Positions 42,580 to 59,336 of a stretch of 64,000 nt of DNA are shown here, in pieces; position 1 is the first letter of the stretch, and every line of letters starts with the position of its first letter. This DNA is from Sphingopyxis witflariensis. Its GTDB lineage: Bacteria > Pseudomonadota > Alphaproteobacteria > Sphingomonadales > Sphingomonadaceae. Under the pieces are notes generated by a model. That model was not told the DNA's origin and did no database searches. It saw nothing but the letters and a program-made list of their open reading frames with translations. Position numbers and translations under genes: made by a program. Location of the stretch: contig NZ_NISJ01000002.1 in the NCBI RefSeq assembly GCF_002205635.1, positions 124,001 to 188,000 of the forward strand, written 5' to 3'.

Positions 42580-43005
42580 CTATTCCCAATCGAGCGCGCC
42601 CTTCTTCCATTCATAGATGAAACCGACGGTCAATATGCCGAGAAACACCATCATCGCGCCCCACGCCCCCCACCCGAGGTCGGTCACCGTCACCGCCCAG
42701 GGGAACAGAAAGGCGGCCTCGAGGTCGAAGATGATGAACAGGATCGCGACGAGATAGAATCGTACGTCGAATTGCGCGCGCGGCGCTTCGAAGGCGGGAA
42801 AGCCACATTCATATTCGGATGTTTTTTCAGGATCGGGTGCGTGCGTGCCCGTCAACCGGGACACCGCCATCGGCAGGAAGACAAACAGCGCAGACAGGGT
42901 CAGCGCGACCCCGAGGAAGATCAGGATCGGCAGATAATCGAGCAGTACGAACGACGCGGGTTCGACGATGGCATTGGCGGATGATGGGATCGATAACGTC
43001 GGCAT
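42580..43005 (-). CDS. nuoA: NADH-quinone oxidoreductase subunit A (orphan)
   Basis: 141 residues, three spans. The conserved NuoA loop is [20 protein letters not shown] with the Cys, then [27 protein letters not shown] lies five bases before the ATG. It is a proton-pumping Complex I membrane subunit. No nuoB-N follow; the next gene on the strand is an MFS transporter. An upstream leader is shared with the guanidinium exporter. Confidence 0.95.
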
Positions 43006-43027
43006 GACAGCTCCCCTTTTCAGTGGA

Positions 43028-43083
43028 GCCGGGCCGTCCCGGGCTTGAGCCTGCGCGGGCTGCGCAGGGGAGGACGTGGCCTC
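43028..43083 (-). ncRNA. Structured leader element, copy B (upstream of nuoA)
   Basis: Read on the minus strand: GAGGCCACGTCCTC (short hairpin with GAGG/CCTC), a perfect 7-bp stem CCTGCGC/GCGCAGG (43050-43068), then CCGGGACGGCCCGG (hairpin, ACGG loop, 43029-43042). Copy A at 43445-43499 keeps the outer motifs and has a different but equally paired middle stem. That suggests a selected RNA structure. The ACGG-loop hairpin resembles one half of a guanidine-II riboswitch, but the first loop does not fit. Confidence 0.6.
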
Positions 43084-43102
43084 GCTCGCTATGTTGCGCC
43101 GG

Positions 43103-43423
43103 TCAGGCCGGCGACGAGATTTTCATGAGCACCAGACCGCTGACGATCAGCACCGCAGCGCCGATCCGCATCGCATTCGCCTGCTCGCCCAGGACAAGGA
43201 TGCCGACGACAAAGGCGCCGACCGCGCCGATTCCGGTCCAGATCGTGTAAGCAGTGCCCAGCGGCAGCGATTTCATCGACAGCGACAGCAGCGCGAAACT
43301 CGCGACCATCGTCACCAAAGTGACGAGCGACGGCACGAGCTTCGTAAAACCTTCCGATTGTTTCATCGAAAAGGCCCAGACGATTTCGAGCACGCCAGCG
43401 ATGGTAAGATAAATCCAAGCCAA
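43103..43423 (-). CDS. gdx: SMR-family guanidinium exporter (Gdx/SugE)
   Basis: 106 residues, four spans. Starts from a TTG with AAGGAGG six bases upstream; no ATG fits. The catalytic Glu is in [13 protein letters not shown] and the SugE-specific [14 protein letters not shown] follows, which separates it from EmrE-type drug pumps. SugE/Gdx proteins exchange guanidinium for protons. It lies between tRNA-Trp and nuoA and has its own leader. Confidence 0.93.
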
Positions 43424-43444
43424 AACAGCCTCCTTTGCATCGGG

Positions 43445-43499
43445 CTGCCGGGCCGTCCCGGACCTGTAACCCGCGAAACGCGGGCGAGGACGTGGCCTC
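43445..43499 (-). ncRNA. Structured leader element, copy A (upstream of gdx)
   Basis: Minus strand: GAGGCCACGTCCTC, then stem CCCGCG-TTT-CGCGGG (43470-43484), then the ACGG-loop hairpin CCGGGACGGCCCGG (43448-43461), 24 bp before the gdx start. Same outer motifs as copy B, 419 bp away, with a different middle stem. Regulatory role inferred from position; guanidine sensing is possible but the motif is not a full match to known classes. Confidence 0.6.
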
Positions 43500-43514
43500 T
43501 ATTTTTTTGTGGCC

Positions 43515-43590
43515 TGGCAGGGGCAGTAAGACTCGAACTTACGACCCTCGGTTTTGGAGACCGATGCTCTACCAACTGAGCTATACCCCT
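43515..43590 (-). tRNA. tRNA-Trp (CCA anticodon)
   Basis: 76 nt on the minus strand with AGGGGTA/TGCCCCT acceptor stem, D-arm AGCTCAGTTGGTAGAGC, anticodon loop CTCCAAA (anticodon CCA), T-arm GTTCGAGTC and an encoded 3' CCA. In many bacteria tRNA-Trp precedes secE; here gdx, nuoA and an MFS gene lie between. Confidence 0.98.
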
Positions 43591-43681
43591 AGGCCGGATG
43601 CGCCACTAGCCCGATTGGCGAAGCGGGGCAAGAGGGATCACAGGTTGCAAGAGACAACTGGCCTGATATGCGCATTTGCAC

Positions 43682-58988: not shown

Positions 58989-59047
58989 ATCGCACTCCCG
59001 TTACTGGCACGGCAAGACGCGGCAAGATGCCGCCCTGTCGCCATGCC

Positions 59048-59273
59048 CCCTCTGTCACGGGAACCTGAGAGTTTTCCTCCACGCGCCCTCGAACAGGGAT
59101 GGGCATGGAGTTACCCCTTCGGTGGTCCCGGCCCAATCCTTATTCAGGCAGCCGGAACGCTTTCCAGAGTGTTCAGTCCAACCGCGCGGTCCTGCTGACC
59201 TGAGAGTTTCCGGGGCGGTTGCTCCTTCGGTGGTGGACCGGCGGTTGCCCGCTATCCACGCTCTCCCGCGCAG
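59048..59273 (-). promoter_or_regulatory. Tandem glycine riboswitch
   Basis: Two adjacent aptamers on the minus strand. Aptamer 1 (about 59165-59273): CGCGGGAGAGCG start, ACCGAAGGAGCAA and AACTCTCAGGTC. Aptamer 2 (about 59050-59160): ACTCTGGAAAG start, ACCGAAGGGGTAA and AACTCTCAGGTTCC. These are the hallmarks of the glycine class, and the tandem arrangement is the common cooperative form. It is in the leader of gcvT and should turn the operon on when glycine is high (established for the class). Confidence 0.95.
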
Positions 59274-59336
59274 TTGGTCGAATCCCTTGCGGAGATCCAA
59301 CGAACGCCCGAGCCTTGGCGCCGCGCCTGTGCAGAG

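Follow-up and report, generated by a model that had tools for sequence, protein, structure and literature searches.

Two copies of a structured RNA leader lie on one strand of the window, the whole stretch of 64,000 nucleotides of Sphingopyxis witflariensis DNA that was analysed, one before gdx and the other before a second nuoA gene (nuoA2). Comparison with homologues resolves the leader into three hairpins, P1, P2 and P3, plus a fourth, P4, over the ribosome-binding site, and makes it a descendant of the guanidine-II riboswitch. It probably works like guanidine-II, on a ligand that we infer.

Two copies of the leader at one locus

Along the minus strand, tRNA-Trp is followed in turn by copy A, gdx, copy B and nuoA2 (Table 1). 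Two copies with common flanking hairpins had been predicted from the letters of this DNA, and both were present on that strand; copies A and B have exactly the same P1 (GAGGCCACGTCCTC) and the same P3 (CCGGGACGGCCCGG). The middle stems, which the original prediction described as different in sequence and paired in both, are so indeed (CCCGCG/CGCGGG in copy A, CCTGCGC/GCGCAGG in copy B). Its account of the leader architecture was correct for the hairpins that it described but overlooked P4 over the Shine-Dalgarno sequence, the arms of which are compensatory between the copies (CAGCC/GGCTG in A and GCTCC/GGAGC in B). The first G of P4 in copy B is also the last base of P3, so that full P3 and full P4 compete there.

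Table 1. Positions in the window of the leader hairpins and neighbouring genes.
Feature	Position	Strand	Remark
tRNA-Trp	43518..43590	-	immediately before copy A
copy A P1 hairpin, GAGG-CCACGU-CCUC, altered guanidine-II P1	43486..43499	-	P1 covariation in homologues
copy A P2 middle hairpin, CCCGCG-UUU-CGCGGG	43470..43484	-	own- versus swapped-partner test
copy A P3 hairpin, CCGGG-ACGG-CCCGG, canonical guanidine-II hairpin	43448..43461	-	RF01068 sub-threshold, 16.5 bits
copy A P4 hairpin, CAGCC...GGCUG, over gdx Shine-Dalgarno	43426..43447	-	swap test, homologues
gdx/sugE, SMR transporter, guanidinium-export type, TTG start	43103..43423	-	
copy B P1 hairpin, same sequence as copy A P1	43070..43083	-	
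copy B P2 middle hairpin, CCUGCGC-AGCCC-GCGCAGG	43050..43068	-	
copy B P3 hairpin, CCGGG-ACGG-CCCGG	43029..43042	-	RF01068 sub-threshold, 17.9 bits
copy B P4 hairpin, GCUCC...GGAGC, over nuoA2 Shine-Dalgarno	43010..43029	-	
nuoA2, paralogue of complex I NuoA, outside nuo operon	42580..43005	-	

The two copies are 416 bp apart, and the exact P1 14-mer occurs exactly twice in the 4.3-Mb genome. When up to two mismatches were allowed, 23 matches in all were found in the genome versus 41 for the reversed pattern; the two-mismatch matches are background. Folding energies of the single window copies were unremarkable (z from -0.80 to -1.74), and proof of the leader structure comes from homologues, not from these energies. 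Copy A lies 18 bases downstream of tRNA-Trp (window 43486-43590), and a tRNA T-loop pattern was found just upstream in eight of the ten nuoA2 loci; the arrangement suggests that a transcript of tRNA and gdx may give rise to the leader. A promoter scan found nothing. Elsewhere in the window (59042-59278, minus strand) there is a tandem glycine riboswitch with two aptamers above the Rfam cut-off.

Covariation and distribution of the leader

Selection for RNA structure had been proposed from the two middle stems, and homologues bear it out, with covariation in P1, P2 and P4. P1 and P3 were examined in 56 distinct rows, taken from 52 hand-picked loci and aligned by fitting to the P1/P3 model; 98.2% of the cells were paired, versus 31-63% when partners were slid. 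Four pairs showed two-sided changes, in 11 cells, and none of 500 shuffles reached the paired share or these changes; the count of further pair types was matched by 14 of the 500. P1 pair 7/25 changed from GC to AU in seven rows. The middle stem covaried as well: with its own arms P2 formed a stem of 5.10 versus 4.15 with swapped arms (sd 0.06, maximum of 200 runs 4.32; 162 distinct instances), and P4 had a weighted score of 5.23 versus 4.23 (sd 0.08, highest 4.45; 145 leaders), in both tests with instances that are partly close relatives, so that the sd values overstate independence. The best P4 helix extended into the 3' strand of P3 in 110 of 145 leaders; it overlapped the Shine-Dalgarno sequence in 96 and lay outside it in 26, the other 23 having no recognised Shine-Dalgarno. 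RNAalifold on a MAFFT alignment of 24 sequences, found by a pattern that fixes P1 and P3, reported no covariation, with P2 misaligned. Copy B with its flanks folds as a long-range duplex between the two common elements, GGCC-AC-GUCC with GGACGGCC. This duplex is disfavoured, because P1 changes to GA..UC together with its own partner (L111, L113) while P3 stays fixed. The triplet A-N-G occurs just before P3 (within five bases) in 161 of the 162 instances and is not prominent in the guanidine-II consensus.

Of 298 family genomes, 23 matched a two-part pattern, at 24 places in all (reversed control, 0); the source genome has two copies and the other 22 have a single copy each. By reading, a gdx start follows 23 of the places and nuoA2 the remaining one. 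In a species collection with one genome per species, a stricter pattern gave at least 118 stretches, the record prefixes of which were all different (by eye). The gdx context seen at copy A is general: 115 of the 121 listed exact matches stand before gdx, three before nuoA2 and three before other genes (L187, L208, L213). Placement was thus not random with respect to gene starts, 118 of the 121 preceding gdx or nuoA2. The gdx start was 19-31 nt downstream in 114 of the listed matches, and at L267 it lies beyond an insert (by eye). This insert, in Sphingobium lactosutens, exceeds 100 bases and splits the would-be P4 (by eye). At L187 (near 2292, minus strand), in Brevundimonas sp. Leaf363, the gene behind the variant leader is not gdx but encodes a membrane-like protein of 84 residues that has no Pfam match. 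The listed taxa included Sphingomonadales, Caulobacterales (many Brevundimonas), Acetobacterales, Methylobacterium and Hyphomonadaceae, along with a few Betaproteobacteria (Zoogloea, Pigmentiphaga).

A covariance model built from 34 sequences, with matches counted at E up to 0.1, matched in 74 genomes of the order (396 searched) and in 41 of the class (385 searched). Examined were 53 of the 83 order places and 31 of the 48 class places, the remainder all being weak. Every order place of at least 40 bits (42/42) had gdx (40) or nuoA2 (2) 11-30 nt downstream. Among the matches at 30-36 bits, gdx followed L151, L152 and L117, an apparently broken gdx start followed L153 and a PACE/BTP efflux gene followed L116. 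Below 30 bits, gdx was found at two of 15 places checked (L154, L158) and was missing from 13; the weak model matches L125-L141 had no gdx.

Relation to guanidine-II

The ACGG hairpin had been likened to one half of a guanidine-II riboswitch (RF01068), and rightly, since P3 is a canonical guanidine-II hairpin that fits the consensus GGG-ACGR-CCC. Variant leader and guanidine-II share two GC-rich hairpins with ACG loops, a linker, a site before the ribosome-binding site and gdx as target, and the variant has the usual guanidine-II context, upstream of exporter or carboxylase genes and near the ribosome-binding site. It differs in its P1 loop, which is CC-ACG-Y and not ACG-R, with two C inserted before ACG, in an extra variable hairpin, P2, in the linker, and in a P3 stem that is almost invariant in sequence. 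In the guanidine-II crystals described in PMC5486947, the closing G floors the ligand pocket, the loops pair with each other through the C and G of ACG, and a purine occupies position 10; variant P1 is without that pocket-floor G. Guanidine-II is defined by two ACGR tetraloops closed by G-C; P3 has this form and P1, with CCACGU in both copies, does not. Both copies score below the RF01068 gathering score of 32 bits (Table 1), and Rfam annotates none of 20 variant loci (the first 20 of at least 118).

Common ancestry with canonical guanidine-II is indicated by transitional leaders. In L152 and L158 a G-C pair closes the P1 loop, ACGA, and a short P2-like hairpin and a variant-like P3 follow; these leaders lie 22 and 18 nt before gdx and score 36.4 and 33.1 bits against RF01068 (cut-off 32) and 33.0 and 27.8 bits against variant model R1; L284 has an intermediate P1 loop, CA-ACGA. 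Canonical guanidine-II stands before gdx in L064/L332, of the same order; two of 99 relatives scored above Rfam's cut-off for guanidine-II, and of these L064 has it before gdx. In a sample of gdx genes collected without use of the motif, which gave 83 places, 54 were read as loci, the 29 omitted being weaker class hits. The 54 comprised 18 variant leaders (17 CCACGU, one CCACGC), 19 canonical ones (including L328), the intermediate L284, three with a single GACGRC, 12 with none and one degenerate variant (L317, P3 loop ACAG); L324, with CCACGU, has an altered P3 closing base. When any last base was allowed in CC-ACG-N loops on a stem of at least three pairs, all 13 such loops in this sample ended in a pyrimidine (12 U, one C), so that CC insertion and loss of the loop purine go together. 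Being derived from guanidine-II yet lacking its P1 loop and Rfam score, the leader is a variant, neither a plain member nor a new class; the wholly new class that the original prediction had entertained finds no support, as the transitional leaders tie the motif to guanidine-II.

Decayed P3 loops were seen at L317, where ACAG precedes an intact gdx, and at L153, where ACUG precedes the apparently broken one. At L116 (1499-1549) a canonical guanidine-II (39.1 bits) lies directly before the PACE/BTP gene, which is of chlorhexidine-type efflux, hinting at a further guanidine exporter family.

The variant leader may already have been met as GGAM-5, one of the motifs obtained by a search upstream of sugE, with 328 examples in Alpha- and Betaproteobacteria and sugE as its commonest gene (Lenkeit et al. 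2020, PMC7736828). Both are RNA motifs mostly before sugE, and their taxonomic ranges agree, the two being likened by description and not by sequence; GGAM-5, however, is said there to precede various genes, in contrast to the nearly uniform gdx context of the variant. The variant's signature for this comparison is GGCCACGUCC followed by CCGGGACGGCCCGG. According to the same source, first tests showed no guanidine binding by GGAM-2 to -6, false negatives being considered possible. No mention of GGAM-5 was found in the other papers searched, and among papers listed on guanidine-II variants and sphingomonad guanidine riboswitches (PMC8632094, PMC12186494 and PMC9788692 among them) none was recognised as describing the variant. 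Guanidine-I, -III and -IV likewise control gdx/sugE, and Rfam listed none of them in window 42950-43620 at E up to 10. A guanidine-IV variant (Gd4v) offers a precedent for altered binding-site bases but, as described in PMC9788692, never precedes sugE, as the variant leader nearly always does.

Exporter clade, switching and the second NuoA

The gene behind copy A had been called a guanidinium exporter, and it is a gdx/sugE of the SMR family with its pocket residues kept. Its best named model was SugE (123 bits, cut-off 126), and the protein is closer to PDB 6wk5 (7.1e-30) than to EmrE (1e-12). The Gdx-subtype pocket (E13, W16, S42, Y59 and W62, residues as named in PMC10829512) was found in the window protein and in 58/58 variant-clade rows. 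The Gdx tree had 97 rows labelled by regular expressions: 59 variant (55 random ones plus chosen ones, from 156), 20 canonical and 18 other, the last two sets being taken in full. One group of 69, with support 100/95, held 58 of the 59 variant rows together with three canonical-labelled (L281, L152, L154) and eight other-labelled rows, among which L117, L267 and L317 have intermediate, interrupted or decayed leaders; a tree outlier, L112, is a divergent SMR of 35% identity. With 58 of the 94 inner branches unresolved and about 10 changes needed for the variant label, a single origin of the variant leader is not established. Twenty positions separate the variant group from Gdx with canonical leaders; at position 20, 58/58 variant rows have M where 17/17 have L, and at position 60 A is found in 2/58 versus 17/17. 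PDB 8vxu differs from 6wk5 at position 60, a change that would alter the substrate range; a literature search listed no paper on it.

We regard the variant leader as probably a derived guanidine-II translational switch, of which we infer both the ligand and the direction. P1 descends from the other guanidine-II hairpin, its loop having gone from ACGR to CC-ACG-Y; the loops of P1 and P3 would kiss through CG pairs. A guanidinium-type cation would fill the unaltered P3 pocket, and its binding at P3 would release the ribosome-binding site, favouring translation of gdx and, in Sphingopyxis, also of nuoA2. The second leader starts about 20 bases past the gdx stop, and a separate leader for each cistron fits translational control rather than termination. 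ViennaRNA, whose model excludes loop-loop contacts, found the Shine-Dalgarno sequence no more open with P3 enforced (mean 0.27) than with P3 disfavoured (0.31); with P3 enforced it was more open in 28 of 145 leaders and less open in 55, so that an ON switch by P3 alone is unsupported at the level of secondary structure. The missing pocket-floor G of P1 also speaks against a guanidine-II switch, as do the negative guanidine tests if the motif is GGAM-5.

The leader could instead be a guanidine-II relative with a changed ligand, its altered P1 loop and the Gdx subclade having co-evolved for another cation (a substituted guanidine, guanylurea or other amine). The gathering of 58 of 59 variant rows in one Gdx group, the separation of variant from canonical rows at positions 20 and 60, and the coincidence of CC insertion with loop-purine loss in all 13 CC loops among the 54 gdx leaders sampled without the motif would suit such a change. 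There is a precedent in a guanidine-IV variant whose ligand differs (PMC9788692), and the negative guanidine tests of GGAM-2 to -6 would count in its favour if the variant is among them (PMC7736828). However, the P3 loop and its closing pair are unaltered, as are the substrate residues of Gdx, and the few other target genes give no pointer to another ligand; we hold a changed ligand to be possible, if rather unlikely. It is less probable still that the leader involves no small-molecule switch and is a protein-binding site, a temperature sensor or a constitutive translation element. The P4 pairing is supported by itself, and the folding test did not couple P3 with the ribosome-binding site, as such an element would have it; sequence continuity with guanidine-II and the almost exclusive link to gdx argue the other way. 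A mobile or REP-like repeat that lies near genes by chance is scarcely credible: the close spacing of the two copies in the source genome might suggest one, but the other 22 matched genomes have a single copy each, distances to start codons fall in a narrow range, and P1, P2 and P4 are compensatory. A repeat had been offered in the original prediction, and the gdx or nuoA2 context of nearly all listed matches does not support it.

The nuoA copy behind the second leader proved to be conserved in Sphingopyxis. A second NuoA was found in 10 of 60 genus genomes and follows gdx in all ten; an eleventh double NuoA match (G347) comes from a single gene that is split in two. In all ten genomes gdx and nuoA2 each have their own leader 8-28 nt upstream, and P1 and P3 are intact in both leaders, while P2 of copy B has drifted widely. 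The nuoA2 product matched Pfam Oxidored_q4 at 127.6 bits; the gene lies outside the nuo operon, which has a nuoA of its own with nuoB and nuoC (both recognised by eye) behind it. For nuoA2, dN was below dS in all 45 pairwise comparisons. The sequences were retrieved through the motif YECG, which they therefore hold by construction, and nuoA2 of L042 extends past the usual end. PADLOC found nothing on nuoA2, and the MFS gene after nuoA2 was not found in the nine other loci searched. It is unlikely that copy B is the remnant of a lost second gdx with nuoA2 behind it by accident. The narrow occurrence of the nuoA2-linked leader, so far found only in Sphingopyxis (3 of 121 listed matches), would agree with a remnant; against it stand P1 and P3, kept intact in 10/10 genomes as copy-B P2 drifted, the low dN of nuoA2, and the absence of the motif from all 21 other nuoA loci examined.

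NuoA2 may take the place of NuoA in complex I when guanidine stress sets in. The mitochondrial counterpart of NuoA is ND3. The TMH1-2 loop of ND3 belongs to the quinone channel of complex I, where biguanides inhibit the enzyme (PMC7614227). A literature search on riboswitches, complex I and guanidine gave no nuoA among the matches listed.

The variant is a widespread form of the smallest guanidine riboswitch, unlisted by Rfam at the loci tested. More tentatively, and with considerable doubt, it may be a guanidine-II descendant made asymmetric by the rebuilding of one twin pocket, so that a two-ligand cooperative switch became a one-site or new-ligand switch that co-evolved with an exporter clade and, in Sphingopyxis, turns on an alternative NuoA so that complex I works when guanidinium-like cations accumulate. 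The series from canonical to altered loops shows how a kissing-loop aptamer can be rebuilt, and the variant leader with its Gdx subclade lets a joint change of riboswitch and transporter be put to the test. If true, the link to nuoA2 would join guanidine sensing to complex I.
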